Source: Acanthochlamys bracteata (Eukaryota > Streptophyta > Magnoliopsida > Pandanales > Velloziaceae). From it: a stretch of DNA of 64,000 nt. The DNA lies in assembly GCA_019914995.1 (NCBI GenBank), contig CM034127.1, positions 1,426,001 to 1,490,000 of the forward strand, read 5' to 3'. A model generated the notes under the pieces. It was not told where the DNA came from. It saw only the letters and a list, made by a program, of their open reading frames with translations, and made no database searches. Position numbers and translations under genes: made by a program. This document shows, piece after piece, positions 3,172 to 29,398 of this stretch. The number at the start of each line of letters is the position of its first letter. Position 1 is the stretch's first letter.

Positions 3172-3184
3172 AACATGCTAATAT

Positions 3185-3545
3185 TTTATCTGCAACATAA
3201 ACACAGAATTAAGCTTAACTTCAAAAATTGAAAAATCAAGAATAACCAATCACTTAGTTTCACTCCGCTACTGATCTATGTCAATTGAGAGAGAGCATGA
3301 GTATGACAGAGCGAGAGAAAGGTTCAGATCCTTAAAAAGACGTAGGCGCCTTGACCAACAAGCAAAACAACGTTAGTACTAAAATACTAATCTAGGGCAA
3401 ACAATAGCGCGCACGCGAGTGCGCCAGAGAGAGAGAGAGACAGAAAGAAAGAAAGCGAGACCTTAGAAGGCTGGAATAAGGTGACGGAGGAGAAGGCGAG
3501 ATCGACGGAGTACGGTGGTCGGCGTCGGAAGAGACGAATGAAGAC
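3185..3545 (-). promoter_or_regulatory. 5' UTR with probable leader intron and GA/CT microsatellite
   Basis: Upstream of the minus-strand start at 3171, a good acceptor (TTGCAG on the minus strand) sits near 3190 and a donor (AAG|GTCTCG) near 3461. This suggests a 5' UTR intron of about 270 bp. The plus strand carries a GA run at 3426-3452, which is CT-rich on the transcribed strand just after the putative donor. CT-rich leaders and first introns are common in plant genes. No TATA box is obvious. The transcription start is probably close to 3500-3550. Confidence 0.45.
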
Positions 3546-3549
3546 GTAA

Positions 3550-4089
3550 GTGATTTTAGTCCGGTTTCTTTTCCTGTTGATATTCTGGACTCAGGCTCGA
3601 GTCTGGACACAAAGATTGAGGTGGAAAGATCGCAGACCCGATTGATTTGATTTGGTTGATGTTTAAACTGGGTTGGACCCCGATTCTGTAGATTATTGTT
3701 TAGGGTTTCCTTTCTATTTTGGTCAAAAACCTCAAGCCCACAGATAGTCTGTTTATAAAAAGCCCACATATATGTACAAAACAAATAATTGATAATCTAT
3801 TACATCAAGAAAACTATACAATTCAAGAAAAAAAAACAAAAAACAAAAAAAGAACTTTGAAGAAGCAACCATACATAAATACGGATACTAGAAATTAAAC
3901 AATAATTAAGTTTCGTTGAAGGTTCTTTCTTGAGTCATTACTATTCTAAATATTATCTTTTTAACGCTCATTCAAGATCATGTAGCTGATTGAATTTAAA
4001 TTTTATATTTATTTTGATTTTAAAGTGAATTAGAAGTAAAAAAATTTTTAAAGTAAAAAGTAAACTAAAAGTGTTCTTCATGGTTTTAT
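3550..4089. other. AT-rich intergenic DNA, nothing recognised
   Basis: Intergenic stretch between the minus-strand gene and the first FLZ copy. It has poly-A tracts near 3828-3850 and no coding signal. It probably contains the divergent promoter of the minus-strand gene at its left edge. Confidence 0.4.
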
Positions 4090-4560
4090 TAACAACTGTA
4101 CCCTATTTCTTTTTTGTTTATTTCACAAGACAAATCTTCCTACATATAACACCACACACGCAAACATTACTTGAACCAAAATCAAACAATACTAGTTTAG
4201 TTACTGAATAATATTAGAACCATCACCATGCCTGCAGACAACACATGCTGCTCATCTTCTTCTTCCTCCACATAGCCCAAAAGTATTCTGCAATAGAAAA
4301 CCAACACTCATATCTTTGTCACTATCAGAAACTTTTTATCTTCGTAGACCATGATGAAATAGAGAAGCCCCCGCATTTCTTTGGAGCTTGTGCTCTGTTT
4401 CAAACGTCTATTACTAGACTCAGATATCATCATGTAGCAAAGAAGGCTCACCTTGCTGTAGTGAATAGTGCATGCAAGAACAGATTAATCATTTAGATGA
4501 AACATTGGAAAGAAGCAGGAAGATAACTATAGCTTCCATGAAGATGAGATATGGTGTTTA
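4090..4560 (+). pseudogene. FLZ-domain pseudogene 1 (intronless, decayed)
   Basis: This is a decayed copy of the intact FLZ gene at 6565. The ATG (4228) sits in the same ATCACCATG context. The stretch EKPPHF, then CAL, then the segment corresponding to the second half of the FLZ domain can be followed in order to about 4560. Breaks seen: a stop at 4273-4275 after 15 codons; a two-base loss near 4393 that removes the second Cys of the C-x2-C pair and shifts the frame; TAC to TAG plus an extra base at the Met-Tyr motif (about 4434); and further stops where the FCSEEC segment should be. Upstream 4090-4227 also matches 6445-6564, so promoter and gene were copied together. Like the 6565 gene it has no intron after the MY motif. 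Confidence 0.85.
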
Positions 4561-6440
4561 ATGTTGATTACTATAGATCAAGTTCAGAAAAATTCAGCAA
4601 TCAACACATGTATTCCCCTGGGAATGGATGATTGGGATTGATGGAGATTCCTGCAATTCTTCAGGGCTAGCTATTTGGTTCCAACGATAGAACTTGAGCA
4701 ATTTGGTGACATATGATAGGCTAGCTATTTGTTAGAACAGTGATGAATTTAAAATTATTCTCAAAATTAATTACCTATAAAAAAAGTGAGCTCAAGTATT
4801 TATTAATATTATTTTAAAATTATTGATAAGTAATGTTGAACTAAACTTTTTTTAACACATGTCTTCTAGCGAAACGTTCTTTTTTTTTATTTATAAATTG
4901 AATTTGATGCGAGCTACGTGCCTCGTAATGAATTTGATAAAGCAAACTCTCTACCTTAAAACGAAATGGACTACTTGCTGTAGAATAGAGCAGATAACTG
5001 TTTTTTGTATGAAGTAAGCTACATGTTTTGAAATAAAGGAGCTATTTTTTTTTAAAATAAAACGAACCATAAAATTTCTGAATAAATATGAATAATAAAA
5101 TTAGATTTAGTCCACATTTTCGATCAATCTGACATAATCCGTTCTGTACTATGTATGAATTTAAAATTTTTTTCAAAATCAATTGATTATGAAAAGAGTG
5201 AGCACAACTTTTTATGAATATAATTTTAGAATGTTGATAAGTAATTTGAGACTAAATCTTTTTTAACAGGAACAATGTCTTTATACTTCAAAATAGAGTC
5301 TTTGCTAGTAAAAATTTATGCTGGAATTTAAACTTAAGTGTGGAAATTGGTTACTTTTCTTCAAAATAAATACCTATGATTGATTTACTTTGCATCAAGA
5401 AACTGAAAAATGGTAGCTAGTTACCAAGATCAATATTTGAAATACTTGATAGTTGATACGACTAATTTGAAGAATCCTTTTCGCGTATACCATGTTATTT
5501 ATCTCTAACCAAATGAAATGCTACTTTATTATGGTACGTTTAGAAATATTTATAAAATAAATATTTTTAGATAAAAAGTATTTTAAATATTTTTAAAAAT
5601 AAATTTGTTTTTTAAAAGATTCAGCCAAACGTCTCCTTAATCTAGTAGGACGCAGGGTGAGAAGCAATTAACTCATTATACACATACATTATTCTAACAA
5701 CTATATAAAAAGTGATTATTTAGCAAGTAAAGTGTCTAACTAGACAAAAAAAACACATGCGTATGATAAAAAACCTTAAACAATATCAGGATACCAAATA
5801 AATGAAAAGCCAGAACATAACACTTGCCTCGTAACTCATGTTCCTTTCTGGATGCCTCCTAACTCCACACCAATCTTTCACAAGAAGAAAATAATACCCA
5901 CATTCACATGAACTAACTTTTTTGAAACGAAAACAAGTGCCATAAGTACCGTCAAATACTTTCTTAACTACATTTCATTATATAACATAATATAAGATTT
6001 AGTAAAGGAAAAGTTAATGTTTTTATACACCGTGCACATGAGCTCCACTCTTTCGTAGCTATTTTTTCTATATAATAAAACAAATTGTTATAGTACTACT
6101 ATATTGAAGTAGTAATTAAATTAGTGATGCACCCACGGGCAGCGGTGTGGTTCTCACATGGGAGATTCTGGGCTGCCATTGAAGCTATAGCACACGTAGC
6201 CCGGAGAACAAGGCTTGAAAAATCTCTCCACAGGTTTGCAAACACGAAGCAAACCAAAGTAGAAAACAAAGTTTAGAGTAATTGACCATATTATACATTT
6301 TTTTAAATTCTTTTCCGTTTTGTTTTCATGTTATTGAAAAGAGAAGAATTCAGAAGTTGTTGCCCGGTCCCCTGCAAAGATCACGTAGGTGAATGACAAG
6401 TGACCCCATGAGTCCCGTGGACTAGGTTCGTTGTAAGTTT
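4561..6440. other. AT-rich intergenic DNA with FLZ-upstream duplicate and small TIR elements
   Basis: No gene is seen. At 5533-5638 there is a small AT-rich element with weakly inverted ends (ACGTTTAG... / ...CAAACGTCTCC), one of many in this window. The block 5780-6240 has a second, diverged copy at 7840-8230. Shared landmarks include a GCACATGA(G/A)CTCCA stretch and a GGGAGATTCTG stretch. It therefore looks like a conserved upstream region of the 6565 gene and not random DNA. Confidence 0.5.
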
Positions 6441-6490
6441 TGCCAACAACTGTTCTCACAGCCCTCTGTTTGTTTATTTCACTACTCTCC

Positions 6491-6499
6491 CTATAAATA
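6491..6499 (+). promoter_or_regulatory. TATA box of the FLZ gene at 6565
   Basis: CTATAAATA lies 66-74 bases upstream of the ATG, which would place transcription start near 6520-6530 and give a leader of about 40 nt. The matching position in pseudogene 1 (about 4140) has a degraded ACATATAAC. Confidence 0.6.
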
Positions 6500-6564
6500 A
6501 ACCCGATCCAATACATCTCACACACTACTCAAACCAAAATCGATCAAAACAAACAACAATCACC

Positions 6565-6963
6565 ATGGCTTCCTGCTCAACGTTTTCCACAGACAATCTG
6601 CGAAGAAAACCTACACTGAGATCTTTCCCTGTTACAGAAAGTTTAATGTTTGTAGACAGCGATGAAACAGAAAAGCCTCCACATTTCTTGGATTCCTGCG
6701 CTCTCTGTTTCAGGCGATTGCGACCTGATTCTGATATCTTTATGTACAAAGGAGACACGCCGTTCTGTAGTGAAGAGTGCAGGCAAGAACAAATTGAGAA
6801 AGATGAAGTCGCGGAGAAAAGCAGGACCATATCTTTAGCTTCCACGAAAAAGAACAACAACAAGAAGAAGCAGAAGAAATCTTCTTCTACCACGTCCAGC
6901 CGTGCTGGTGCTGAAGGGCATGAAGTATTTCTCCAGCGGCAAGACGCTGTTGTTACTGTGTAA
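6565..6963 (+). CDS. FCS-like zinc finger (FLZ, DUF581) protein, intronless
   Basis: 132 residues in a single exon. FLZ proteins are small plant adaptors that bind the SnRK1 kinase complex and link it to starvation and stress signalling. The FLZ domain spans about residues 36-85, with C45-x2-C48, the FMYKGD motif at 59-64, and C68-x3-C72 (FCSEECR). After it come a short acidic helix ([10 protein letters not shown]), then a Lys/Asn-rich and Ser-rich low-complexity tail. The ATG is the first one downstream of a TATA box. Other FLZ genes in this window (12151 and 22421) have an intron exactly after the MYR/K codon region. Here the coding sequence runs straight through that point, so the intron has been lost. 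The reading frame is intact and all four Cys are present, so it is probably functional. Confidence 0.9.
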
Positions 6964-7839
6964 AGATTCATATGATCGCACTCTACCATGAAAGCAACAA
7001 GCAAACTGGTTGAAGCAAAAATTGATTATCATCGGCTGGCAAAAGAAGAAAAGTTTTGTGATGATTACGATGATGGGTATTGAGAGAGATGGTGGAAAAA
7101 TTGCACCAGTCTAGCTACCAATACAAGGGCAAAAAAGTTGGGAAAAAAAAGACAAAGCTGCAGAAAGTTTGATATGTATTGAATTTTGTATTCTAATGGA
7201 ATTTCGTATTTGATATGGAAATTGATAGCTTTACTTGAATCAAGTACCTCTGTTGATAGACTAAGCTTCAAAATATTTACTATTATTTTATAATTTTGTA
7301 AGCTTCAATTTTTTTAAAAAATTAGCTTAATAGAACATTATTAAACTTTTAGCTTCAATTTTACAAAAATTGTACCAAGAAAACTCAACCAAACGTTTAC
7401 TACTTCATGACTAGAAGAACTACTTTGTATTTCCCCCGGTTCTCTATAATTCAGGCACTGAACTTGGTAAAAAAATCTTTCTCTAATGCTTACATGAACT
7501 TTAAACTCAATAACAAAAATACAGAAATTAAGTACATGTTTGACAGTGTTTATCAAAATGCTTCTCCATTTTAAATAATATCTTATTTTTAAATAAATTT
7601 TTATAATATTTAATAATTTAATTATTATAATACTTTATAAAAATAAATAAATAAATATTTCAAAATATCTTACATTAATATTTTTTTATAAATTTTTATT
7701 TTGAACAATTTCAAACGACTTTTAACTCATATAAGTTAAGGATCATATGTACTAGAGAATTTTTTATATCAACACATTTGCAAATAGACAAACAGTGTTG
7801 CTATGTCGGTGATGTTACAAGTAATAACAGAATCTTATT
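6964..7839. other. 3' flank of FLZ gene and AT-rich DNA with a TIR-like element
   Basis: The first 250 bases are the likely 3' UTR of the FLZ gene. The rest is AT-rich and holds an AT-rich palindrome-like block at about 7538-7725, flanked by GTTTGACAG and CAAACGAC. It resembles the other short TIR elements in the window. No coding signal. Confidence 0.45.
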
Positions 7840-8230
7840 ACTAGAATGGCAAATAAATGAAAGCCAGCGCCTAATATTTTCCCCGCTACCGCTGCTGCTG
7901 AATGCCTCCCGATTCCCTTCAAATTTTCAGAACAATACAAAACAGAGTAGAAAACTTTTAAAACTTTAAACTAAAGATAAAAGTAAAAGATTTGTTTCTA
8001 ATAATCCCTGCACATGAACTCCATACTTTTCTTTCCTAGCTACGATAATAAGACAAACAAAGAATCAAATAGAATATGATTGTTGCTGCACTGGTGAATT
8101 GGCAGCGAACGCACGGCACCAGTGTGGTTTCTTCACGCGGGAGATTCTGATATGGCAATAGAAGCTACAGTACAAGTAGCACAGAGCACAAGGCCGCCCA
8201 CTCACTGTCCGCAAAAACAAAAAATCCAAC
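7840..8230 (+). repeat. Solo copy of the FLZ upstream region (relic of a lost FLZ locus)
   Basis: Colinear with 5780-6240, the upstream flank of the 6565 gene. Both contain an AAATAAATGAAA(A)GCCAG stretch, a GAATGCCTCC / GGATGCCTCC stretch, GCACATGAACTCCA, then GGTGTGGTT/GTGTGGTTTC followed by GGGAGATTCTG and a GAAGCTA(C/T)AG stretch. After 8230 the similarity stops and no FLZ coding sequence follows. This is best read as the surviving 5' part of a deleted tandem copy. Confidence 0.7.
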
Positions 8231-11200
8231 CAATGCAGTGCAGTGTTTTGCTTCGCATCTTTTATCTTTTTTTTATAATGGACTTTTTGACCTAAAGTGT
8301 GAATATTTTTCACCTCATAATTCAAATTTCTATTAAAAATCATTTTATTCATAACTCTATATATATAGGAGAACATACAAAATTATATTGAACTTATTTC
8401 TAACGAGCTATCTGGAAACGAGATTAAAATGTAAGATAGAGATGAAATAATAATAAAGATGAAGATAAAATAAATAAAAAATAATTATTTAATTTTATCG
8501 TATATGAATATACTAGTAAGTTTAAAGACTCAATGCTATTTAAATTTTAAAAAAATGAGTAATAGAAATACACTTCTGATAAAAAATTACAATGCTTTTC
8601 CTAAGTTATATTAATATAAAATTTTAATATAACTTTAAAATAACATTATTATTAAATTTTAGATTAATTTTATTAATTAATATACTTTTAAATTAATTAG
8701 ATATAACATAACATAAAAATTAACCACATAATAAAATATAAAATTTTGTAATAAAATTAATTAAAAATAAATAAATATACAAATTATAAGCTCTTATAAT
8801 AAAACGTAACAGTGCTAATTTTTAAATTTTTAATTTTTTTAATACTTTTATAAAAACAAAGAATGGCAGCAGAGAAAAATGAAAATTTAATTCTAATATC
8901 CGCTACACTCCAATATTCTTCAAACAGTATTTTTCAAATTAAATAATTCATTTTCTTTAATAATAATGATGATTGCTAAAAATATGAACGGTGTGAAGTA
9001 ATTTACTTGTATCTCCATTCACTCTCATTCATCCAAACAGTCTTTTTACCAAAAGAAAACAAGGCAAAGGAAATAATTAAAGAGAATACAAGGCAAATCA
9101 AATAATATTATAAAATTTATTAAAAGATAAAAAGTTAAAATAAAATAAAAAATAACATGTAATGCGAAATATGCATGTATCTTGCATAGAGCTCCTATTT
9201 AAATTTAAATTAGGATATATATTCTATATTTACAATTCATTTTTTTACTAAAATAATATTTCTAACTCGTTCCTTCTTACAAAATAATATAAAGATTAAA
9301 TATATTTCTAAATAATATTATATAAAATAACTCATTTTTTAATTATTTATTTGTTATTAATTCACTTAGAGTTAAAAGAACAAACCAATAATCTAACTTC
9401 ATCTCTTCACTAATATATACACTTTGGAATAAGAAAAAACAACTACAGCGTAAAGATTCATACATAGGAAGGTGACGCGAAGTTTACCTGCTTTATTTAT
9501 TTAAATGAAAGATTCGAAGTTGTTTTCTCATTCCCAGATTTCTGCCATGTTTCCTGTTAACTGGTCAATGAAAATCTTCTATTACATTACAGTGATTATC
9601 AGTTCCATTAGAAGAAAATAATGAAAGATAGGGTTTCTGTTGATAAATATAATAAAAGGTTTTGATGTGATGCAGAGATAGGGGCATGTCGGTAGCCAAG
9701 GAAACCAGAGTTGTTAAAATAAGATTATATAAATTAGTTTTATTATTATACATAAATATCAAAGAATAGCCAATCCTACGTAATTAAGATTGAAAATTAG
9801 GATATTAGGTTTATATTTTGATTTATCCATATTTAACTATGAAATAGATATTACATGAATTTAAAAAAATCAATAAAATATCTAACAAATATAATTGAAA
9901 ATTTTAAGAATATTAAAGTGAAACTTCTACAAAATATAAGGAATCTCGGACCACTCAAACTTAGTTAAAATGCTCAATTTGGCAACAATGAATAAGACAA
10001 GGTTAAAATTTTCAATTTAGCAACAATGTCAAATGTTCCGTACGTATATTTGCTGATTACCATGCTATGTATAGTTTTTGAGGATTATATCTATAATACA
10101 AGCATTAGACCACACGTACAATTTATTAGCTTCCTATCAAATAAACGTATTAGGGTGCGCGTGTAATTACGCTCTTTTTAATTTTTTTTAATATATATTT
10201 TATAAATAATTAGAAATTTTATTTAAAAATTTAAAAAATATAAAACAATTCTGCATAGTGAAATTTTTTTAATGTATATTTTTATTATTTTTTGAAAATA
10301 AAAAATAGAGTTCATTTTTTTAAGAAAATAAAAATATATTTTATTTTAAAAAATTTCTATTTTATAATATTTTAAAACGCATACCTAATTATAAATATAT
10401 TATATTATAACATATTTATATTTCTAAATATAAAAAATTGAAAAACGGTTGTATCAAAACGAATTAGAAAAGATAGAAGCATAACAACCGCACACGTAGT
10501 AATCCTGCACAGAGTTCGACAGATTCTCGCGGAGTTCGAAGTCCTGTACTGCACGCTAACAAAGAATTATGTACTACTAAAAAACTTTGGCTGATTTTTT
10601 TTTGGGTTGAAAAGTAAAAGCAATCTAGTTAGTGGTGGTAATAATTCATAATTTGTACTATGTTGTTTGATTTACTTTTACAAATTATTTCATCACAATG
10701 ATTAATTGACTTTTTTTTACAGAATTCCTGCCATGTTTCCAGATAAAAGTGCGAGAGTTATAATGAAGAGATTGAAAAAGTGAATTATTCGAGAGGGTCT
10801 GTGTCATCAATGGAGGCATGTCGGCAATCAAGGAGACGAAGTTAATTATACAATAAGCTATATTAATTACTAATCATTAAAAAATTTGTTTGCTTTGTTC
10901 TGAAACAAAATATTTTTATAATTAATATAAATGTGATTTATTTTTTTTAAAAAATAATAAAATTAACTAATAATAAAAAGTTTTACCATATCGAATATTT
11001 TGTAGTTTTAAAATTAAAAAAATTTTTACAAAATATTTTTAGAAACTTTATTAAGAAAAATAGAAATTGGAACGATAAAAAAAAATCCACTTAAATTAAC
11101 TTTTGAAAGTATTTATAAAAATATTTTGAGACTTATATATATATTAATAAAAAGTAATAATATTTTAATACTTTATAAGATACAATTTTTTTTACTTTTA

Positions 11201-11269
11201 AACTACAAATTCTTTATAGTGTACTAAAACATTATTTTATCATTAAATTGGTAATAAAGAAAAAAAATA
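8231..11269. other. AT-rich intergenic DNA with internal duplication
   Basis: About 3 kb of very AT-rich DNA without a credible gene. A diverged duplicate pair is visible: 9530-9740 and 10715-10860 share CTGCCATGTTTCC and, further on, GGCATGTCGG(T/C)A(G/A)(C/T)CAAGGA. A short TIR-like element occupies about 10149-10388. Confidence 0.45.
10149..10388. mobile_element. Short AT-rich TIR element (MITE-like)
   Basis: An AT-rich block of about 240 bp. Its ends are TTAGGGTGCGCGTGTAA and, inverted, TTAGGTATGCGTTTTAA. The interior has the (A/T)-rich TATATTTTATAAAT / TTTAAAAATTTAAAAA pattern shared by the blocks at 14.6, 15.6 and 24.1 kb. It encodes nothing. The target-site duplication is not resolved. 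Confidence 0.5.
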
Positions 11270-12036
11270 TGTAGGACTGATTTCTTTGGAAAAGCTTACA
11301 AGCTCTAGAATGAACTATTATTATTACGTATGGGACCCATTTAAGTGGGGCGGTGTGCCGTACGTCTTAGAATAAGCTAGCAACAAATTCACTGAAAACG
11401 AAATAAAGCAAAACAAAACAAAGCAAAGCAAACCAGGACAAAAGAACAAAAAGAAAAAAGGTAGCAAATAAATTAAAAAAGCGAAGCTTTCCCTTTCCCT
11501 GTGCAGGTTTATTTCATGTAGAAATAATTTTCAAAAACAATTTTCATATATTAATAATTTAAAGTTTTTATTTTTAAATATTGCTGCAGTATCTTTTGAT
11601 AAATAAAAAAGTTTTTTATATTAAAAGTGAGTTTGTAATGATATTTAGTTTTAAAATATATACTTTAAATATAAAACTTTTTTTGCTTAAGTTTTGTTTA
11701 ATTTATTTTTTTAAAAATATTTGTTGCAAAATTTTGAAGAAAAAAGTGAGCTTATATAAGTTATTATTATTATCAATCAACACCAAAATGTACATTTTTT
11801 GTTAAATTAATTTTGTTTATGTACATATTCGAAAAAAATATTACATATGTACTGCTTTTGTCTTTGTTTGTGTTAAATTAATTTTGCTTCCATCACTAGT
11901 GCTTTGTTTATTGTTGGGCATCTATATATGTTTAAAGCTTTTACCCACAAGCAACACCAACACATTCACCAAAGAATCAAATATACCTCTGATTTTAATT
12001 TGTTAGCATTCCAAACTCTACAACACTCAATTAAAC

Positions 12037-12048
12037 CTATATATAAAT
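12037..12048 (+). promoter_or_regulatory. Probable TATA box of the FLZ gene at 12151
   Basis: CTATATATAAAT lies about 105 bases upstream of the ATG. It aligns with CTATAAATAC at 15413 in the duplicated unit B, which supports it over a second TATA-like stretch at about 11921. If the upstream TATA were used instead, the message would carry a four-codon upstream reading frame at 12051-12065. Confidence 0.5.
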
Positions 12049-12150
12049 CAATGAGTCGACAATAACTTCTTCTTCTTCTTCGTAATTTTCTGCTGGCTGT
12101 GTTGTTTCGTCGGAGGAAATTATATAAGTAAAGAGATAATAGCCAGAGAT

Positions 12151-12539
12151 ATGAACAGCACGGCGGGATTCTATTTGGAAGAAATAATCGCCGGAGAAGA
12201 AGAACAGAAACATTTCCTTGACGCGTGCGCCAGATGCCACAAGTTTCTCAAACCCAATACAGACGTTTATATGTACAGGTTAGCTATCGATTCCATATAC
12301 ATATATTTTTTCTCTTTGTAGATTATTATTTTTTTGTTTTAATTTACACTGCATGCAGAGGGAACATTCCGTTTTGTAGTGAAGAGTGTCGTTCGGAGCA
12401 GATCGTAATCGACGAAGCTGCAGAGGGAAGTCGAAGGCGATCAACGGCGGAGAGAAAGAACGAGTCGCGTTCATCTACTACTACACAATCAAGTGATCAG
12501 ATCAGAAGAAGACCTGGAAGTACTGTTGTTGTTAATTAA
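12151..12539 (+). CDS. FCS-like zinc finger (FLZ, DUF581) protein, two exons
   Basis: Exons 12151-12278 and 12359-12539 join across an 80-bp GT-AG intron to give 102 residues. The FLZ domain follows a short acidic N-terminus (GEEEQKHFLDAC): C26-x2-C29, the VYMYRGN motif at 39-45, and C49-x3-C53 (FCSEECR), then EQIVIDEAAEGSRRR. The C-terminus is Arg/Ser/Thr-rich and ends VVVN. The ATG is the first in-frame one after an in-frame TGA in the leader. The intron falls inside the Arg codon of the MYR motif, as in the 22421 gene. It is smaller than the other two intact copies and lacks their long N-termini. The expected role is a SnRK1 adaptor, as for other FLZ proteins. Confidence 0.88.
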
Positions 12540-13299
12540 TTAGCTAAACATTTTCAAACTGCTTCTATTGTGCATGCCGTGCTGCCGGGAGCGTGTACTT
12601 CTAAATTATGTATGTGTAGAAAACAACAAGGCTCTAATGGAGTTGGTACAACTAAAATGGCCAAATTTGAAGCAGAGAATTATATGTAAGGGTGATTTGA
12701 GATGCTTAAATAGAATGAAAACATATTGCCAGGTAGAACCATACTTAAATACATGGAAATGTAATGCTACATGTTGTTTGGCATTCTCTTGATTTATGTT
12801 GTACAATCCACAGTTTTTTTTTCTTTTACGGTATGTTTAAATACATAATTAATAAATAAAAGTAAAAAAATAAACAATAATAATAATAATAAAACAGATA
12901 AAAAATAATTATTTAATTTATGATATTTGAATATATAATTAGAATAATAAATTAATTATATTTAGATAGATAGATAAATGAATGAGTAATAGAAATAAAT
13001 TTTTTATAAATACTCAAATGTTATTGTATTTATAATTTAACTTTTGTTGATATAATTTTAAACCAATTTTATCAATATAACTTTAGATTAATTTTTATAT
13101 TAACTTAAATTAAGATTAATGTTAGATATAATTTAACAAAATTAAATTAGTTTTTAAATATAAAAAATTGATCTATAGTTTTATTCTTTTATCTACCAAT
13201 TAAAATTAAATAAATATAAAAAATATAATTATTATCATAAAAATAACATATATTAATTTTTAAAATTGAATTAAATATTTAATTTAATTTAAATAAATA

Positions 13300-13300
13300 A

Positions 13301-13326
<26 letters not shown>
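13300..13326. repeat. (AT)n microsatellite
   Basis: An uninterrupted AT dinucleotide run of about 26 bases within AT-rich intergenic DNA. Confidence 0.85.
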
Positions 13327-13331
<5 letters not shown>

Positions 13332-14608
13332 ATTTGATCATATAAAATTAAATAAAAAATTAATATTTAAGAAAAAAAGACAAAAAAAAAGTAAATTTGT
13401 TTTTTTTATTGCAACCATATGTATTCACTAAAATAGCCGGTACATATTTAACTATATACAGGGGAGTGATGGAGAATTGTTTCTGTTTTTTTCATTAATG
13501 AAATAAAACCAAAGGTAATAGAGATGGAGAAATGGATCACCTTCTCCTTCACTTTCCATCTCTATCCATCATCCTAACAATGTCTTAGGACCACTTGAAT
13601 GTTTACCAACGATTATTACATTTCTTTTTATTTCAAAATAATTTTATATCTTTTAATAAACTTTTACAGCATTTTGGAGCAATGTATTAAAATTTTGAAA
13701 AAATACATTAAATTATATATCATTCAATATAGATATAGATATATAGACCAAATATATTAAATTTAATTTTCTAAAAAAATTCAAAATAAATTTTATTTTA
13801 AAAATGTTTTCATTTGAAGTATTTTTAAAAATTCCCTAACCAACTTGCTCTACTTAAAAGATTTTAGAACAAAAAGTTGGTCATGGCCAAGAGAAACCCA
13901 AGTGTTACTTCTCATGAATCATGGTATTACTCCATGCCAGTTACTTCGTTTCTTTTCCAATGAATATGTCACATTCCTTATTAATTGAATGCAATTTTCA
14001 TTGCTGCTGTTTGATGAACATATAGAAATTGACCAGATTTTATCTTCCCTATCTCTCTCTATCTAGAGATATTTTAGACCATGTTTACCGGAACATAATA
14101 AATTTAATAAAAATTAAGTTTTTAGATTATTCTATATTAAAAATAGTTTAAAAAAATAGTTTACTAAGCTGGTAAATAAGCTCTTTAGAGCTATTTGACA
14201 ACACGTTTCAGAAAAATAGTTTTTTAATTTTAAAAAATAATTTTTTAATTTTTCAGTTTCTAATAAATTTTTATAAATTTTATTTAAAAATATAAAAAAT
14301 AAAATCTTGTTACTATTTATTTTATTAATATTTTTTTGAGTTAAAAAGTAGAACTTATTTTTTAAAATAATATAAAAATATTTTCCGTTTCATAAAAATA
14401 CTTTTCAAAAATACTTTCCAACACAAATTTAGAAAATATAAAATAAATTCTTTTATAAATTAAAAAATATTTTATATAGTCCTAGAAATAAAATATTTAT
14501 TAATAAAATAGTTTTACATGTTCTAAAATTTAAAAAAATTCTAAAAATTATAAATTTTTTTAGTAAAAGGTGGGAAATGAAAAAGTATTCAAACCCACGA
14601 TCGGTGTT

Positions 14609-14820
14609 AGGGGTTGTTTGGTTCAGTTTATTAAAAAAATAATTTTTTAATTTTATATTTTAATATATATTTTATAAATATTAAAAAAATTATTTAAAAA
14701 TTTAAAAATATAAAATAATTTTACGTAAAATATTTTTAATAAAGCTTCTTTTTTAAGAAATATAAAATACTTTTTATTATAAAAAAATTTTATTTTAAAA
14801 ATACTTTCAAACGTCTTCTT
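14609..14820. mobile_element. Short AT-rich TIR element (MITE-like)
   Basis: It begins GGGGTTGTTTGGTTCAG and ends TACTTTCAAACGTCTTC. The ends are imperfect inverted repeats around the core GTTTG(G/A). The interior pattern matches the blocks at 10.2 and 15.6 kb. It is non-coding. Confidence 0.55.
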
Positions 14821-15529
14821 AATTAATCAAATGAATTTTTCGAATTAAGGGAAAAAATCTGTGACTGATATCTTTAGAAAAGCTTACAAACCTCTAGAGT
14901 TAATATAATGTATGAGCTCCATTTGAAGCTGGCGGTGTGGCAGACGTACGTCTCAGAAGAAGCTCGACAACAAATTCTCATTGAAAACGAAATTAAGCAA
15001 AACAACAGCAAAGCAGGACAAAAAAAAAACAAAAAGAAAAAGGTAGCAAATTAAATTAAAAATGCGAAGCTTTCCCTTTCTCTGGGCAGGTTTATTTCAC
15101 GTAGAAATAATTTTTCAAAAAGTTATATTTAAATTTAGAAAATATTTATTTATTTTTCCTTCGTGAGGTGATACAAAATAATTGATGTAATTAAGTCAAT
15201 GTACCGGCTGATCAAAATTAAGTCAATGTAGAGCTACGCGTATTTTAATTTTTTTATTTATTTAAAAAACGTAACGATATTCATACTTATTTATGTATTA
15301 GCTCGTCAGAGATTTGAAATATAAGCAAATACACACTCAAAAAAGTATTATATGTACAGTTTTTGTCTTCGTTTGTGTTAAATTAATATTGGTTGACATT
15401 TTGTAATTTCACAGCTATAAATACATAATATAAGACAGTATTCTTAGCTCGACAAAGAACTTTCTCTTCTTCTTAACTTTCTACGTTGTCTTCTGGTGGC
15501 TGTGCTGTGTTTTTTCATCGGATGCGTTT

Positions 15530-15753
15530 GTCATCAAGTTTCAAAAACAATTTTTTATTTTTTTTTATTTTATATTTTTCAATACATATTTTATAAATTA
15601 TTTAAAAATTTTATTTAAAAATTTAAAAAAATTTTACGTAATGAAAATTTTTTATTATATATATTTTTTATTTTTTTAAAAATAAAACTTATTTAAAAAA
15701 ATAAAAATATTTTTTATTTTAAAAATTTTTATTTTATAAGTAATTCTAAACGA
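15530..15753. mobile_element. AT-rich MITE-like insertion in the leader of FLZ pseudogene 2
   Basis: The leader of unit B matches unit A up to about 15525 (TTCATCGGA) and resumes at about 15753. Unit A has only about 45 bases between these points. The inserted DNA starts near TTTCAAAAACAATTTTT and ends TTTTATAAGTAATTCTAAACG. It has the same internal pattern as the blocks at 10.2 and 14.6 kb. Its exact ends and target-site duplication are unclear. Confidence 0.6.
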
Positions 15754-15754
15754 T

Positions 15755-16115
15755 ATAAACAGCACGGCGGGGCGTTTCATTGACGCGTGCGCCAGATGCG
15801 ACAGGTTTCTCAGACCCAATACAGACCTTTATATGTACAGGTTAATTAGCTATCGATTCCATATACGTATATTTTGTTTCTAATTTAAAAACAAATTTAT
15901 TTATTTTTGTTTTCAAACTGCATGCATGCAGAGGGAACATTCCGTTCTGTAGTAAAAGGTGTCGTTCGAAGCAGATCGTAATCGACGAAAATGCAGAGGG
16001 AAGTCGAAGGCGATCAGCAAGAGACCCTGCTGCCGTTACGGCGGAGAGCGTTCATCTACTCCTACACGATCAAGTGGTCAGATCAGAAGTTGGAAGTACC
16101 TTCGTTGTTTGTTGA
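15755..16115 (+). pseudogene. FLZ-domain pseudogene 2 (start codon lost, domain frame intact)
   Basis: The copy corresponds to the 12151 gene. The initiator ATG is ATA here (15755-15757), and an in-frame stop lies a few codons upstream inside the inserted element, so no in-frame start precedes the domain. About 45 bases of the N-terminal coding part are missing (STAG then runs into RFIDAC). Downstream, exon-like blocks 15755-15840 and 15932-16115 keep the donor, the GCATGCAG acceptor and an open frame. All four FLZ Cys survive (CARC; CSKRC), and two Glu in the FCSEEC motif have become Lys-Arg. The tail diverges from the parent and ends at a TGA at 16113. It is recent, since the frame is still open, but probably not translated. 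Confidence 0.8.
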
Positions 16116-16460
16116 TTTGGTAAAACATTTGCAGGACTGCTTCTTCTTTGCATGTTGTGCTGCTGGGGGTTTGTAATTCTAAATTATGTATCTGTAGAAA
16201 ACTAATTGCTCTGTAGGAGTTAAATTTTGTACGTATGTATTTATTTTGTATTAAAAGTGAGTTTGAAAGTAAAAATTTTTATTTTTATAAATTGAAATTT
16301 CAAAACTGAGTTTGTGAAAAAATTTAATTTAATTTTTATATTTACTGAAATTTAAAATTAAAAATTGAAAAAAATTGAAAGAAAAAAACTAAATTTGAAG
16401 TGTAGATAAACAAATCTTTGAAATAACTGAAATGGGCAAATTTGAAGCAGAGAAACTTGG

Positions 16461-18805
16461 AACAAATGGGAAAATTTTCAGGAAGAGACCGCAAAATTAT
16501 TAGGTAATTAAGAGGCATTTAGTAATGCTTATAAAATATTACTTAATTAAAATAAAAAGTATTTTATGTATATTTAGAAAATAAATCTTTTTTTTTCAAA
16601 AAATACAAAAGTAAGTAATAAGAAAATTTTACTTGCATACAATTTTTTATATTTTAGAAAACTTTAAATAAACTTTATAAAACATCACACAAAATTTATT
16701 GAAAAAATAAGAAATAAAATTGAAATATGAAAATGCATTGCCGGTGCCTAATAATCAAGAACCACATGCTTCCTATTGCTAATAACAACTAGATCAAAAT
16801 ACTTCTTTAATTTAGATATCCAGTTAAATGGTTATAATTGTTGAGAGCATGTAGTTCTAAATTATTTTTTTTTCCCTGTTTTTTCGAGTAATACTTTGTG
16901 TCTAACTTAATTTTTTCAATGTCGTCTTTTTTTAATTAATTATGAGTTAGTCTTATTGATTTATACTGTTTAATTTTACATATGAAATTATATATTAATG
17001 TATTAATGATGAAAAACTGGATGAGATATTGAGATTAGATGCATAAAAAGAATAAATGTTACGATTATAATTCGCATGTATCATTATATCTTAATTATCT
17101 CAATAATCCAACTCGAGTAATAAATTTTGAAGAAAATTAAAATAAAAAAGTCCAATTTGAGTTGTATTTTTTTAGTACAGATTTTAATTAAATAAAAATA
17201 AGTTTCGTAAAAATAAAATTCTGTAAAATGTAAATTTCAGTAAAAATAAAATTCGAACTCATAATTGAAAGTGAATTTTAGAATTATTTTGATGAAATAA
17301 GGTTTGATTTTAAAATTATAATTAAGCTATATATGGTGACGAAATTTAAAATTAAAGAATTTTTTTTTTAATGATTAAAATATGCCTTTAATCTTAAATA
17401 GTTATCACATTGTCCTTACAATTCCTAACTGCTTCCACTCTTCCGACCAAACGGTTAGAAAATTTTCTTCAATGACGACGGTGAAGAAATTCAGTTCACT
17501 GTTATACACATGTCTATAATCACCATGCATGGATATTAATTTTTGGGCACTTCTTAAATTTTAGAAGTTCTGGAGTTTTTTTTAGGAAATAATTTTTATT
17601 TTCTTATTTAAGAAAATAATAAATAATAATAATTATATAATATAAATTTTTTCTATTTTTTAAATTTTTAAATAATATAAGAAATTTATTATAAAATATA
17701 ATATAAAATGAAGTTATTAAAATAATACCAAACGCACTCTACTGTCACTACCAGATACGCACATAACAGGGAAAATTAAAAAAGTTTTCATGCGCTAGCT
17801 TTGGCTTTCACGAGGGAAATGACCGATAATCACTTTACTTACTTGCTTATTTGAGTGCGTGTTGTAAATATTCATAACTGAATTTCGTAAAAATAAAAAA
17901 TAAAAAATAAAAATTTTTTAAAATAAAATAAAATTAGAGTTCAGTATTTATATTTTAATATTTTTTAGAGATATACTGAAAATTAAAAAATATAATTATA
18001 TTATAATTTGTGCAAATAAAAAAATTATAACTGAAGTTCGTACGTAAAAATAAAATTCTAAATTTGTTAAATAATTAGAACATATAAACTGTCTCAAATT
18101 CAAAATTTAAATACAAAAAAATAAAATAATAGACGTTTGGAACACGTCCTGAGCTACGGGTGTGTTTGAAATGTTAGAATTTCACTTTCGTTGAATAGAT
18201 TTGAAATTTTTTTATATATTTTAATTACTTATTAAACTAAAAATGAATTTTTTTATTATTTAAAAATTCATCATTTTAAATTTAAAATTATACTTTTCAC
18301 TTACAATTTAATTTCAAATAAAATTTGAAAAAAATAACTAAACTCACTTTTAACTACTTTTGAAAAAAATATTTTTTACTATTCTTATAAAACTCGCTTC
18401 AATTATATTTAAGATATGTTCTTTAAATATCATCTTATATTTATTTTTCTTATTTGTAGCTATTGCTAATGCGTCTCTTCTTCTTTTTCTTTTTCTTTTC
18501 TTCTTAGTCAAATGATTATGTTCAATTATAAGTTTTGTAAAAAACAAAAATAAATTTTAGTAAAAACAGATATCAATAAAAATTAAATTAGAAATGACAA
18601 TTAAAACTAATAAAATAAATTTGATTAAAAATAAATTAGATGCATAAGTGAAAGTAAACTTTAGAATAAATTAAAACGCATAAAATTATCTAATTCAAAA
18701 TTAGATAAAAATTTTGAATTAAGTGGTAATTGAAAAATATCTTAGACTCTACGACAAATAAAAATGTAGTCATCTGTTGTATGAATTACAACATCGATGT
18801 GTTGT
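16461..18805. other. AT-rich intergenic DNA
   Basis: No gene is recognised in 2.3 kb of AT-rich sequence with many short A/T tracts. A MITE-like block at about 17544-17740 ends CCAAACGCACTCT, the same end as the element at 24115-24314. Confidence 0.4.
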
Positions 18806-20201
18806 CTTTTATGCTCTGTTTGGATTGAGAGTAATGAAAAGTAATTAGAAATAAGTGAATTAATTATTCATAACTATTTTTGTTTGGTAATAAATTTGTA
18901 AAAGTAATGAGAAGAATTTTACTCTCCAATAATCTCTATTGGGGAGTAATTAGTTATATCCCATATTGGGGTAACCAAGTGAAGAGAATTTTATGGTCTA
19001 TTGAGTTTATAAAATTTCTATTTTACTCATCTTTGTTTGTTATATTTACCTCAGTGATTTTCTTTCTTCGTTTCACTCCAATCCTGACAAGTTTCTATGC
19101 CCTCGAACCGCCGCCGCCGACGGAGGTGCTTCTTCTTCTTCTACCAAGTTTCTTTGCCCTCCACCACAAATTCTTGTCTCTCCATCTTCTCCTTTTTTTT
19201 TTAAAGAATATTCACCGCTGCCAGAACCGACAAGATCAGTGTTCTACACGCAGACTGAAAAGAAACCCGCCGCAATGACGGCGACTTCGCACACCATGTA
19301 TAAACTCACGCATCACCGAAGCTCAGGCCGGTGTACAAGCTTGCTGTCACAAGTGTCGCTTGCTGTTTAGCCTCTTCAGCTTCCTCTTGTGCTTGCTTCA
19401 TTGACGATTCAGATGCGGAGTCGTAGCCGTCGGCTTGCTCGTGGGGACGAACGCGAGACCAGATGCTGCTCTGAGCATGGACAGAAAATTGGCGAGACCG
19501 GATCACGAGGAAGCAGCAGCAGTCTGGTGGGTCCATGTCGATCGACCCGATTGGTAAGGCGTTGGTGTTGGCTAGGCAAGAGGAGGAGACGGGCCGGCAG
19601 CAGTCGTGGTGGTTGGTTTGAGAGGACAGGAAGAGAAAGCGCGATTGAAACCATGTACAAATTCACGCACCGTCGAAGCTCAGGCCACTGTGCGAGCTTC
19701 GCCGAACTTGAAGCTCGTGCCGGCGCTGAGCTTCAAGTTCAAGCTCACGACAGTGGCGAATGCGTGAGCTTCGCCGAACTTTATAAAGCTCACGCCGCGT
19801 GAGCTTCAAATTCAAGCTCATGCACCGGCGATATTCGTCGAACTTGAAGTTCACGTCGGTGCAAGAACTTTGCCGAACTTGAAGTTCATGCCGGCGATGG
19901 CTTGCTGTCTATGACAAAATTAATTACTTATAAAAATTATTACTCTTATAAAATAAAATTATTCTTATAAAAATTACTAAACATGAAAAGATTTCAGATT
20001 TTTTATAAAAATTACTCTTATTTACTTTCAATTATCAAATAAAAATAATTATTTATTCTTTATTAACTTTATTGATATATTCAAATAAAATAAGATAAAT
20101 TATTACTCTTACTTTCATCTCTACCTAAATAATTTATTCTTATTTAATTTTATTTTTATTTACTTTTATTTATTACTCTTATATTCAAACAGACTTTTAC
20201 G
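18806..20201. mobile_element. Non-autonomous hAT-like element with a GC-rich core, about 1.4 kb
   Basis: The ends are inverted repeats: TCTGTTTGGATTGAGAGTAA at 18815 and, inverted from the right end (20193), TCTGTTTGAATATAAGAGTA. Flanking them are CTTTTATG (18806-18813) and CTTTTACG (20194-20201), an 8-bp duplication with one mismatch, the length typical of hAT elements. The subterminal 150-250 bases on each side are AT-rich with repeated (A/T)TTACT(C/T)TTA motifs. The middle (about 19080-19910) is GC-rich, unlike everything around it. No transposase is present. Confidence 0.65.
19280..19900. repeat. GC-rich core with direct repeats inside the hAT-like element
   Basis: A segment beginning CCATGTATAAACTCACGCA at 19293 recurs imperfectly from about 19650 as CCATGTACAAATTCACGCA. 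Both are followed by CGAAGCTCAGGCC. From 19700 to 19900 a short motif of the type GAACTTGAAGTTCA(C/T)G, itself nearly palindromic, repeats several times with GCCGGCG(A/C) spacers. Open frames exist on both strands but none resembles a known protein. This could be captured host DNA that amplified inside the element. Confidence 0.55.
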
Positions 20202-22190
20202 GAACTAGTGAACCAATCAGCACAATAAAATTGTTGCACGACAAAACTTTAAATATTAGATAGCTTACTACTTCATTCGCCGTTGAAGTATATGATCACA
20301 TCAAAATCAAACCTTCTCCAAAGTCTTCACTAAAGCACAATCACTTACGCAAAAAATAAAATTTTTAAAAATAAATTATTAAATATTAAGTTAAAAAATA
20401 ATTTTAAAAAATAAGTAAAGCACAAAATAAAAGTTATTGTTTTGGTGATAAATATAATTTTGGAATAAAAAGTTAATAAAAATCTGCCGATTGTGACCGA
20501 TTTAATCAAATATACCGGTTTGAACTTTCTAGAGACCGAACGTTCGAGGACCGTTGATAACCAACGGATAAGATCTTATCTCGGAAATCTGACGGTGGAA
20601 ATATCGAATAGTCCGTGTGCCACGAGCGAGTTGTTTTGACCGTGCCCTGGCTCGTGTGCTCGTTCACGAAGTGGTGATGGTTGGTCTGCGCGTGCTGGGT
20701 ACCCACCGAGTGAAATAGGCCAAGAAGGGAGGGGAGAAAACGACAAAAGAAAGCAGCTGTCCGGCTTCAATTACTAAGTAGATATTTCGTAGTAGTTCCA
20801 AGTGGGTCCCTATAACGTTCGTTACGTCACCGCGAAAGTTTAGTGTTGTTAACCTGTGGGACCTGCGCATTACGAAAGCAAAAGATTCAAAGGGCGCTTG
20901 ATGTTCATATTATTCCATCTCAAAAAATTCAATTAATTTATATTTTAAATAAATTATTATAATCTTTTATAAATTGTTAAAAGATAAAATATAAAGAAAT
21001 TCATATATAACATTTTATTATTTTTATTTAAAAAATACAATTTTTTAAATAAACACAAAATATATTTTTAAATATTTCAGAAGAAATAATTTCAAAATTA
21101 CTATCGAACACTCCCTCCTTCATTTCATTCATCGCGCCTGATTCTATCTTGTTAAATTTGCTCCTATGTTTCAGGTTACTTACTTTAATGCCATTCAATA
21201 ATGAAATGTCGTTATTCCGCCACGCCTTACTTAGCTGCGGTAATAATAAATCACAATCCTTAATAGTGTGACATTATAGTTAATAAATTAATTATGAGTC
21301 AATTTATTTTATAATTAAATTAAAATTGTTTAATTTTAAAATAAGAACTATATTAAAATAAAATTATAAAAACTAATTTCTAATTTTACTAAAAAATTGT
21401 TAAGTTATATATATATTTATTTATTTTTAACAAATTCTATAAATTAAAACAATGATGCAAAGTATGATAAATTAAGCAAAAAAATACAAATTAATAAAAT
21501 TCAATACCTTTATTCTAAGTATTTTTTAATAATTAATTAATATCATGTGATATATAAATAATTATATGTATTGGATATATTAATGTCAAATTAATTCAAA
21601 ACTGGTCTGAACATATTTATTTTATCGTATCGTTTTTGGATTGATAAAAACATAGATGATTTCAGCTGGAAACCCAAAAATCAGTGTAAAAACTATTACA
21701 TAGTATCAGTATCAATTGGTCATTTTTTGTATGATTTATTGAAAATAGTTTTGAACTTTGCAAATTCAAAAATTTCTTCCACAATACTATAACATTAGTA
21801 TCTTATATAAAATTTATTCAAATATTTTTCAAAAATTCGAATTTTATTAAAAATTGTATTTTTCAGCATCTCAACGTGCCCTTTCTGTACATCTATTTTT
21901 TCAGCATCTCAGCCTGCCAACTCGGTGCCGTTAATTTGTGTCAAATGCATCGATATCTATATTTTCACTACAAAATTGAAGTTCGACTAGTTATGTTTTA
22001 ATTATTATTTCAAAATTTATATTAAATTTTAAGATATTTTAACCATTATAAATTTTAATTTAATTTAATTTAATTTTTTATGGAATTTTGTTTTTATAAT
22101 TTTTTTGTAGAACTCACTTTAAAAAATTTAGAACAATCTCTAAGCAATTGCGGGTGGTACATTAGTAATTAAACGAAGAAATAGTGGTAT
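20202..22190. other. Intergenic DNA upstream of the 22421 FLZ gene
   Basis: No gene is seen. The stretch 20490-20880 is of normal GC content, with a short inverted repeat CCGTTG/CAACGG at about 20551-20567. It might be an ancient gene or regulatory fragment, but no coding match was recognised. The block 20890-21120 is AT-rich with MITE-like ends (GGGCGCTTGATG... / ...CGAACACTCCC). The rest is AT-rich. Confidence 0.4.
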
Positions 22191-22420
22191 GTTAGTCAAC
22201 AATTTTCCTAACTTTTTTAAATCCAAACCAGTTTCGTTCTTCCAATACTACCCTCGAGTTCTTCTTCTTCTGGGTCCTCTGCTCACGCCAACAGGCATTT
22301 GCTAAACCTCTCCCACCACCACCAACATTACCACTCTCCGCAATTCCCAAAAACCATTTTTTCCTGAAAGAACTGTTTCTGTAAGTCGAGTTTTCAGTTT
22401 TTCTTTTTGGTTCTGTGGAG

Positions 22421-23187
22421 ATGGGTTGTGGGGAAAGGATCTTTACTACTGCTACAGAGATCGAGGCTACTGGATTTATTGTGCCTGGTGTAGTAGAGAG
22501 AATCGGGTTATCTCCGGCACCGGTTGTTCCTTCTCCTGCACCGAGATTTGAAGGATTTTTTTTGGATGATCTGGTTTGTGAAGAAAAGAAACATTTCTTG
22601 GAGGCCTGCGCGCTTTGTAATAAACCGTTGGGATCTAATCGTGATATCTTCATGTATAGGTAAATTCCATCTCTCTAGTTTTTATTTGTTTATCGGCTGG
22701 TGTTGTTGTGTTTGTTTCTTGTTTTGGTTCTGATCGTTTTCATCTCGAAGCTTCCCTATCTTTCTTCGAAATAACTGGAAACTTCATCTTTTAGCTTCGA
22801 ATTCTCTCCTCAAGGGTTCCGATTTTCGCCGGTGAAGAAAAAAGATTTCTTTTCCCCCTCCTTAAATTGTATAATTTCTGGTCCATGCAAAGGAAAAATT
22901 TAACCTTTCTCCAATCTGGGTTTAGAATTCGGAAAGTGTTTTTACCCTTGGGAGAAATTTTCCCTCACTCGTTAAAATGATTTGTTGTTTAATTCAGGGG
23001 TGATACACCGTTCTGTAGCGAAGAGTGTAGGCAAGTACGGATCGACATGGACGAAGCAGCAGAGAAAGCTCGGAAGCTCTCCTTCAAACAAGCTTCTGCT
23101 TCTTCCACAATCATCGAAGAAAAGAACACTACTTCTTCCGAAGGTCCGACAATCGGTGTGAGAACTGGCGCTGTTGTTGCTGGATAA
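22421..23187 (+). CDS. FCS-like zinc finger (FLZ, DUF581) protein, two exons
   Basis: Exons 22421-22659 and 22998-23187 join across a 338-bp GT-AG intron to give 142 residues. It has the longest N-terminus in the array: residues 1-55 hold a hydrophobic/Pro stretch and a motif [10 protein letters not shown]. The FLZ domain covers about 56-101: KKHFLEAC63-x2-C66, FMYRGD at 77-82, C86-x3-C90 (FCSEECR), then [17 protein letters not shown]. The tail is Ser/Thr-rich and ends GAVVAG. An in-frame TAA lies upstream of the ATG, which fixes the start. It is more diverged from the 6565 and 12151 genes than those are from their pseudogenes, so it may be the older member of the array. The likely role is a SnRK1 adaptor or scaffold. 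Confidence 0.92.
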
Positions 23188-28500: not shown

Positions 28501-29398
28501 TGTTCCTCAAGTTTTTCAGGATAGCTATCATAGTTATTGCTTGCACAACCTTATTGAGGATTTCAAGGCAGAGCTTGCTAAGGAACCATGGTCTCAACAG
28601 ACAAAGGACGCGTTGGTTGATGACTTTACCCGTTCTGCTCAAGCTTGTACAAGCGAAGAATTTAATGCTTGCATCGAAAGCATAAGGAATGTCTCTGGAG
28701 AACTTGCTGATTGGGTGTTGACCAGTAAGCCAGAAAATTGGTCTGATGCCTTTTTTGCGGGTTCTCGGTATGATCATTTCTCATCGAACATCATCGACTC
28801 CTTAAACACATGGATACCTATTAAGCATGAGTCGTCAATAGTGCAGATGGTGGATGCCATACACTGTAAATTGATGGAGGTGATGAGCACGAGGCAGGAG
28901 TCATCTAGTGCATGGGTTGACACTTTGACACCATCCATGGAGCATAAACTGCAGAAGGAGATTTCAAAATCTAGGAAACTCAATGTGTTATGCTCTTCCG
29001 ATACGGTTTTCGAGGTGCGTGGTAACACTATTTATGTTGTTAATACTGGCAGCTGGGAGTGCACATGTCGGAGGTGGCAGATATCAGGTTTGCCTTGCAC
29101 GCATGCGATTGCTGTCTGCAATCGTACCGGTAGATCTGTTTATGATTTTTGCTCCAAGTACTTCAGAACGGAATTTTATCACTTCGCCTATGCTGCTGCT
29201 GTCCATCCAATACCTTCATTAGAGAGTGCGGAGTTGAACAGCGGTGGTGATATGTTTCTCTCTGTGAACCGTCGTCCCCCTGGACGACAAAGAAAGAGGC
29301 GTATCAATCCGAACAAGACGGCACCCACAGCATTACGTCTTTGCAGCAGATGTAAAGTAGCAGGACATAACAGGGCAACTTGTGGAGCTATTCTCTAA
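25567..29398 (+). CDS. Domesticated MULE transposase of MUSTANG type (PB1 + MuDR + SWIM)
   Basis: Exons 25567-25883, 25967-26065, 26141-26266 and 27517-29398 are phase-consistent and give 807 residues. Domain order: PB1 at about 1-105; a Thr/Ser/Lys-rich linker; the MuDR-type zinc/DNA-binding domain at about 249-313 (C282-x4-C287 and HTC at 311-313); the MULE transposase domain at about 430-530; a SWIM zinc finger (C696-x-C698-x9-C708-x-H710); a basic stretch; and a C-terminal zinc knuckle (C790-x2-C793-x4-H798-x4-C803). A PB1 domain fused to a MULE transposase is the mark of plant MUSTANG-B (MUG) genes, which are former transposases kept as host genes. No terminal inverted repeats were seen around it. 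In the positions where active MULEs have the first two catalytic Asp (LDG.HLKG and SDRQKG motifs) this protein reads LGRIPLKS and SSRQKG, so cleavage activity is not expected. The third intron is 1,250 bp. Confidence 0.92.

Follow-up and report, generated by a model that had tools for sequence, protein, structure and literature searches.

FLZ zinc-finger proteins are described in PMC9879155 with the motif CX2CX3LX4DX3YX5FCSX2CR and a single intron, and PMC11641214 gives binding of the SnRK1 alpha subunit as a property of the family. Table 1 of PMC4529292 lists tandem FLZ genes in rice (8), Brachypodium (10), Sorghum (13), Medicago (four) and Arabidopsis (two), and none in many other dicots; PMC4047054 presents its Arabidopsis tandem pair as identical in sequence. 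Here we describe a tandem array of FLZ genes in a 64,000-nucleotide stretch of the Acanthochlamys bracteata genome, hereafter the window (GenBank assembly GCA_019914995.1, contig CM034127.1; C2:1426001-1490000). Labels such as C1, C2 and C14 denote contigs of this one genome, whose assembly comprises 195.5 Mb in 557 contigs, the larger of them chromosome-scale (C1, 14.9 Mb; C20, 6.4 Mb), and positions given without a contig are those of the window. A preliminary description of the window had set the array against FLZ genes that are usually discussed as dispersed or segmental duplicates; this was overstated, because tandem FLZ genes have been published for grasses and Brassica nigra, but it does fit the many dicots listed with none. 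Our analysis points, with a probability of roughly 0.8, to a pair of sister homoeologous arrays that arose by tandem expansion before a whole-genome duplication and have since decayed unequally.

Two colinear FLZ arrays on contigs C2 and C1

Adjacent, homologous copies of the FLZ family lie on one strand of the window and form a tandem array (Table 1). The preliminary description had reported six loci, namely three intact genes (starting at 6565, 12151 and 22421, here B2b, D2 and F2), two pseudogenes (B2a and E2) and an upstream-only relic, and all of them were recovered at 4.2-23.2 kb, yet the array proved larger than stated. A fourth intact FLZ gene, A2 (C2:1425147-1425563; 79.7 bits), ends ~440 bp before window base 1, and a partner array occupies C1:1280142-1295384. 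The four intact C2 genes match the zf-FLZ profile at 78.7-81.8 bits, against a curated cut-off of 23.4.

The order on C1 is A1, B1a, B1b, B1c, D1 and F1, followed by a PB1-domain gene, and A, B, D, F and this downstream gene are alike in order and orientation on the two contigs. Compared at default stringency, C2:1414749-1451875 was mainly colinear with C1:1262841-1297420 (~35 kb). Low-stringency blastn was dominated by AT-rich matches, and the stricter run was used for all but the region just upstream of B2a. Synonymous divergence (Ks) of the intron-bearing pairs A, D and F was 0.70, 0.68 and 0.47, respectively (pooled 0.59, interval 0.45-0.75), which agrees with the pooled value of 0.51 (0.41-0.65) for three FLZ pairs elsewhere in the genome. 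Colinear order that includes a flanking gene, and Ks like that of other duplicated pairs, were thus found locally, over ~35 kb, as expected of a homoeologous pair. Dispersed FLZ genes were also paired on a domain tree, between C9 and C17 twice (one with support 59/84), C4 and C6, C8 and C11, and C1 and C2; one further FLZ pair links contigs C1 and C2 (C1:9.64 Mb with C2:9.17 Mb). From the ~35 kb and these FLZ pairs we infer that the two arrays are probably sisters from an old duplication of the whole genome. The array would be older than the duplication of Ks ~0.6, with the intron-bearing genes A, D and F already in place by then and, probably, the intronless ones as well. Judged by their sequences, the two copies of the array have decayed in different ways since then.

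To place the array within the family, the whole genome was searched with the zf-FLZ profile (PF04570), which gave at least 48 matching pieces, merged into at least 30 loci: 5 on C2:1425198-1449058, 6 on C1:1280181-1295255, 1 on C14 and 18 elsewhere. B2a and the relic had no Pfam match and are therefore outside this count. Because 11 of the 30 loci sit in two stretches of ~24 and ~15 kb within 195.5 Mb, the clustering of FLZ genes is not due to chance. The domain tree covered 26 of the 30 loci; left out were g12a, where the pattern could not be located, g13, which gave no second exon, the pseudogene E2 and the decayed B1b. On this tree the array members did not fall into unrelated FLZ clades, but stood together on one side of the split from the other FLZ genes of the genome (support 69/71). 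Duplication in the assembly was rejected as the source of the C2 copies, which differ by 20-30%.

Table 1 Features of the FLZ array and its left flank in the window
Feature	Position	Strand	Remarks
Gene N, single-copy non-FLZ gene	1206..3567	-	extent and 5' leader inferred from open reading frames
Region just upstream of pseudogene B2a	4083..4192	+	66% identical to 6437-6550 before gene 6565
B2a, intronless FLZ pseudogene	~4225..4547	+	early in-frame stop and several frame-shifting indels relative to relatives
Upstream element 'P' of gene 6565	5997..6262	+	homologous to C1:1283071-1283412, C14:3921985-3922123 and the relic
B2b, intact intronless FLZ gene	6565..6963	+	one exon; 132 aa; zf-FLZ E 2.8e-23; full CX2CX3LX4DX3YX5FCSX2CR motif
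Relic, probable promoter of a lost intronless FLZ gene	7832..8240	+	matches C1:1285368-1285770; no coding part found
D2 exon 1, intact FLZ gene	12151..12278	+	gene zf-FLZ E 2.2e-22
D2 exon 2	12359..12539	+	preceded by a phase-2 intron of 80 bp
C2-only tandem copy of 11253-12644 (~0.9 kb upstream and D2)	14843..16221	+	matched in pieces
E2, FLZ pseudogene, intron kept	~15757..16150	+	ATG changed to ATA, exon 1 deletion, degraded exon 2
F2 exon 1, intact FLZ gene	22421..22659	+	142 aa; gene zf-FLZ E 2.3e-23
F2 exon 2	22998..23187	+	preceded by a phase-2 intron of 338 bp

Precise intron loss in the B subclade

A single phase-2 intron at the same position in the domain, mostly between MYR and G, was present in 18 gene models (A1, A2, D1, D2, F1, F2 and 12 dispersed models), as counted by a script that searched for a junction at that site. 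Four further dispersed loci have the domain split in like manner, the C8 locus is split but degraded, and for the C13 FLZ locus a second exon was not found within 3.5 kb. Six copies are intronless at the same site: B2a and B2b in the window, B1a, B1b and B1c on C1, and X14 on C14. The A, D and F genes have the usual two-exon, single-intron structure of FLZ genes, and the B subclade does not. In rice, an intronless gene, OsaFLZ5, is counted as a member of the family (PMC4529292).

The codons at the junction are intact in B2b, B1a, B1b, B1c and X14 and continuous across it, and in B2b the intron is missing exactly between MYK and G. The uninterrupted codons of these five copies indicate that the intron loss was precise, and a precise loss suggests a spliced-RNA intermediate. 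One loss in the common ancestor of the six B-type copies suffices. Given a Ks near 1 within the B clade, survival of a poly-A tract or a target-site duplication is unlikely.

An upstream element without its gene

The segment 7780-8420 was scored by local alignment against eight segments, with 40 dinucleotide shuffles for each comparison. The top score came from the sequence preceding B1c, an intact C1 gene (181; shuffles 35±4), followed by an orphan element on C14 (171; shuffles 34±4), the region upstream of gene 6565 (152; shuffles 35±5) and the element before B1b on C1 (119; shuffles 40±4); z was at most 2.6 for the other four segments. No coding remnant was found in 8200-9500, where the best DNA match had an E value of 0.019. 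The score against the upstream region of gene 6565 bears out the upstream-only relic of the preliminary description.

The two matched pieces of the relic are separated by 334 bp on C2 and by 331 bp on C1, and the colinear matches between the contigs pick up again past the relic at 9464 (C1:1287644). In a tree of five elements the relic grouped with the B1c element, and the B1b element with the C14 orphan, each with an ultrafast bootstrap (UFBoot) value of 98. Most likely, then, the relic corresponds to the upstream region of B1c, a match that we hold with fair though not full confidence.

A known structured RNA was rejected as an identity for the relic, as window positions 1-26000 had 0 Rfam matches. 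A dispersed repeat is unlikely. A genome-wide search with a 140-bp element of gene 6565 found 2 places, itself and C14; the query was the 6565 element and not the relic, and because neither the relic nor the C1 elements were recovered, the search was insensitive at such divergence. An AT-rich pair of ~430 bp, 69% identical, lies at 8445-8860 and 12872-13301, one member directly behind the relic, and is possibly a repeat tied to the loss there.

Pseudogenes and surviving genes

Both pseudogenes of the preliminary description carry the disruptions listed in Table 1. B2a is 73-76% identical in DNA to the intronless copies on C1, and an alignment of 4077-4558 with C1:1281768-1282256 takes in the corresponding region before B1a. 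In E2 the exon 1 deletion is ~42 nt; this deletion and the loss of the start codon were read by eye. E2 is part of the C2-only tandem copy, whose upstream pieces are 79% and 84%, and whose gene is 78%, identical to the D2 unit. D2 and E2 are 78.1% identical, compared with 66.5% for D2 and D1 and 62.3% for E2 and D1, and E2 alone in the array is clearly a later local duplicate. A repeated AT-rich element at 15538-15752 (77% to C1:1296053-1296255) lies directly upstream of E2 and is perhaps a small transposon insertion. The local birth and death that had been proposed is right, but A, D and F, and probably the B copies, would have been present before the duplication that gave the C1 partner.

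Each of the 10 intact array-type genes (A1, A2, B2b, B1a, B1c, X14, D1, D2, F1 and F2) carries the full CX2CX3LX4DX3YX5FCSX2CR motif, which is missing from the decayed B1b. Only 6 of the 12 dispersed gene models match it letter for letter, so the motif is no strict test of membership. The ratio of nonsynonymous to synonymous divergence (Ka/Ks) was 0.18 for the F pair, 0.36 for the A pair and 0.48 for the D pair, and 0.15-0.29 among the B-type genes that are intact; the upper limits were lower than 1. Because of these low ratios and the full zinc-finger motif, the surviving array genes look functional. By analogy with the family, the intact proteins are predicted to be small zinc-finger adaptors and should bind the SnRK1 kinase. 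The preliminary description saw in the array a possible source of variation in the dosage of SnRK1 adaptors.

Intronless copies, gene N and the C14 segment

Among the B copies, Ks was 0.99 (0.64-1.74) for B1a and B1c, 1.10 (0.68-2.28) for B2b and B1c, and 1.35 (0.78-9.9) for B2b and B1a; the value for B2b and B1c was 0.98 under another treatment of end gaps, and 1.10 was used. B1b lacks a start codon and the first zinc-binding cysteine.

The leader of gene N (3431-3567) matches C1:1283501-1283645 and C14 and serves as a common positional anchor. The 248-aa open reading frame (ORF) of gene N matches C2 alone and had no counterpart in the stretches of C1 and C14 compared. On C1 and C14 both B1a and a 'P' element lie to the left of the leader; on C2, the sequence left of gene N gave no more than 11-30 bp matches to B copies.

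C14:3920621-3925150 matches C1:1281309-1286085, and the rest of C14:3911001-3934000 gave no further match to C1:1262001-1322000. The C14 gene X14 is intact and B1a-like (Ks 0.25). Within this segment, ~1 kb at C14:3923861-3924916 is missing from C1 and is flanked on both sides by ~10 bp of C1 (1281486-1281495); it resembles a transposon that inserted with duplication of its target site.

Neighboring genes and a second tandem pair

To the right of the array, 25567-29398 holds a PB1-domain ORF and then a MuDR/MULE/SWIM ORF, with the look of a domesticated transposase gene of the MUSTANG type. The C1 partner of the PB1-domain gene has two TAG stops in its PB1 part. Further along, at 41738-62726, ORFs resemble the exons of one large gene, presumably VPS13-like as a whole; a scanned ORF of 275 aa matches VPS13_VAB and Pex24p, and its second match in the genome is distant (32% identity). 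A second match is lacking for the gene N protein and distant for the VPS13-like one, so neither informs synteny. On C3, two FLZ loci (C3:593306-593935 and ~C3:597.7 kb) lie 4 kb apart on the same strand and are sisters on the domain tree (78/85), forming a second small tandem pair.

Discussion

The history that we favor builds on the gene anatomy, colinearity, intron absence, relic homology and low Ka/Ks observed here, and its order of events is our reconstruction. A single FLZ lineage would have expanded in tandem before the whole-genome duplication, giving the intron-bearing A, D and F genes and a sub-lineage B. Sub-lineage B would have undergone a precise loss of its intron, with a spliced RNA as the probable intermediate, and would probably have grown to three or more copies. 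A duplication presumed to be genome-wide would then have produced the C2 and C1 arrays. C2 would have retained A2, B2b, D2 and F2, with B2a left as a pseudogene and another B gene shrunk to its promoter, and D2 would later have gained the tandem copy E2, which died. C1 would have retained A1, B1a, B1c, D1 and F1 while B1b decayed, and ~4.8 kb of the C1 array would later have been copied to C14, where one B gene is intact.

Several observations weigh against this history. Support for the monophyly of the array is modest on the domain tree, some C2-C1 matches are inverted or out of order, and none was found beyond window 25.9 kb, with C1 compared up to 1322000. Most Ks values of the B copies exceed those of A, D and F, yet the intervals are wide and overlapping, and Ks is as low as 0.67 for B1b and B1a and 0.80 for B2b and B1b. 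Given this overlap, the existence of three or more B copies prior to the duplication is favored, not proven. The coding tree of the B copies supports B1a with X14 alone (100), with other nodes at 62-63, and does not settle the matching of single copies. Gene N lies to the left of every B copy on C2, and on C1 its leader lies between B1a and B1b; either up to five B copies were once present, or the order has changed. For the relic, the C14 orphan scored nearly as high as B1c, and raw identity in the five-element alignment was 0.604 with the X14 orphan, 0.591 with B1b, 0.579 with B1c and 0.566 with B2b. Finally, B1b keeps 97 open codons with Ka/Ks of 0.21-0.33, and its decay may therefore be recent or partial.

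The alternative that survives best, although we consider it unlikely, is that tandem expansion took place separately on each chromosome after the duplication; a single intronless ancestor would have been the source, and B would not have multiplied beforehand. It would account for the C1 B copies being closer to one another in coding DNA (82-86%) than C1 copies are to C2 copies (73-80%), and it is helped by the poor resolution of the coding tree and the overlapping Ks intervals. However, point estimates of Ks among the C1 B copies (0.99, 0.92 and 0.67) are no lower than the pooled value for the homoeologs of A, D and F, and upstream elements match more strongly between chromosomes (relic with B1c, 181; 6565 with B1b, 168) than the two on C1 match each other (66).

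Somewhat more doubtful is a role of its own for 7832-8240, as an enhancer or a non-coding transcript that outlived the neighboring FLZ genes. Three similar elements have no intact FLZ gene directly behind them, namely the relic, C1:1283071-1283412 (with the decayed B1b behind it) and C14:3921862-3922277, the last with no FLZ match behind it in the C14 stretch compared. Against such a role, Rfam gave no match, identity between the elements is just 0.50-0.62 except for B1b and the C14 orphan (0.78), and two intact genes (B2b and B1c) carry the element upstream, as expected of a promoter. We give slightly less weight again to a variant in which up to five intronless copies existed before the duplication, were lost in a complementary manner, and left the orphan elements (relic, C1:1283071-1283412 and C14) as regulators of the remaining FLZ genes of the cluster. 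The purely local array of the preliminary description, decaying in place with no partner, is highly improbable: the tandem layout is real and E2 is a late local duplicate, but the colinear C1 array, itself with intact intronless copies, contradicts it.

Sister arrays with unequal decay provide a clear worked case of gene birth and death, in which decayed copies can be compared with surviving relatives in the sister array. One promoter has lost its gene on one chromosome, and on the other that gene is most likely still intact; a subclade with precise intron loss stands within a family in which the single intron is otherwise conserved. The array is real and ordinary in kind, as FLZ clusters and an intronless member have already been published, and its history is richer than first described. 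It leaves knowledge of FLZ proteins unchanged and is an instructive example, not a new kind of thing.

Among the described systems, the Arabidopsis genes AthFLZ17 and AthFLZ18 are likewise tandem FLZ duplicates (PMC4529292, PMC4047054), but they are a pair with one shared two-exon structure, and the available portions of these sources describe no intron loss or decay series. More generally, titles and abstract openings of the FLZ literature found describe no FLZ pseudogene series or promoter-only relic. Rice OsaFLZ1-6, on chromosomes 2 and 4, resemble the present arrays in having tandem genes in duplicated blocks, structural divergence and an intronless member, OsaFLZ5 (PMC4529292). In contrast to our locus, the available text of that source includes no pseudogene or promoter-only relic. 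In Brassica nigra, BniFLZ19-25 are seven FLZ genes within ~108 kb of one chromosome, which the authors regard as possible tandem duplicates (PMC11641214). The part of that report at hand gives no partner array or decay series, whereas the array described here has both a sister on C1 and a series of decayed copies, and it is denser, with six loci in 19 kb.

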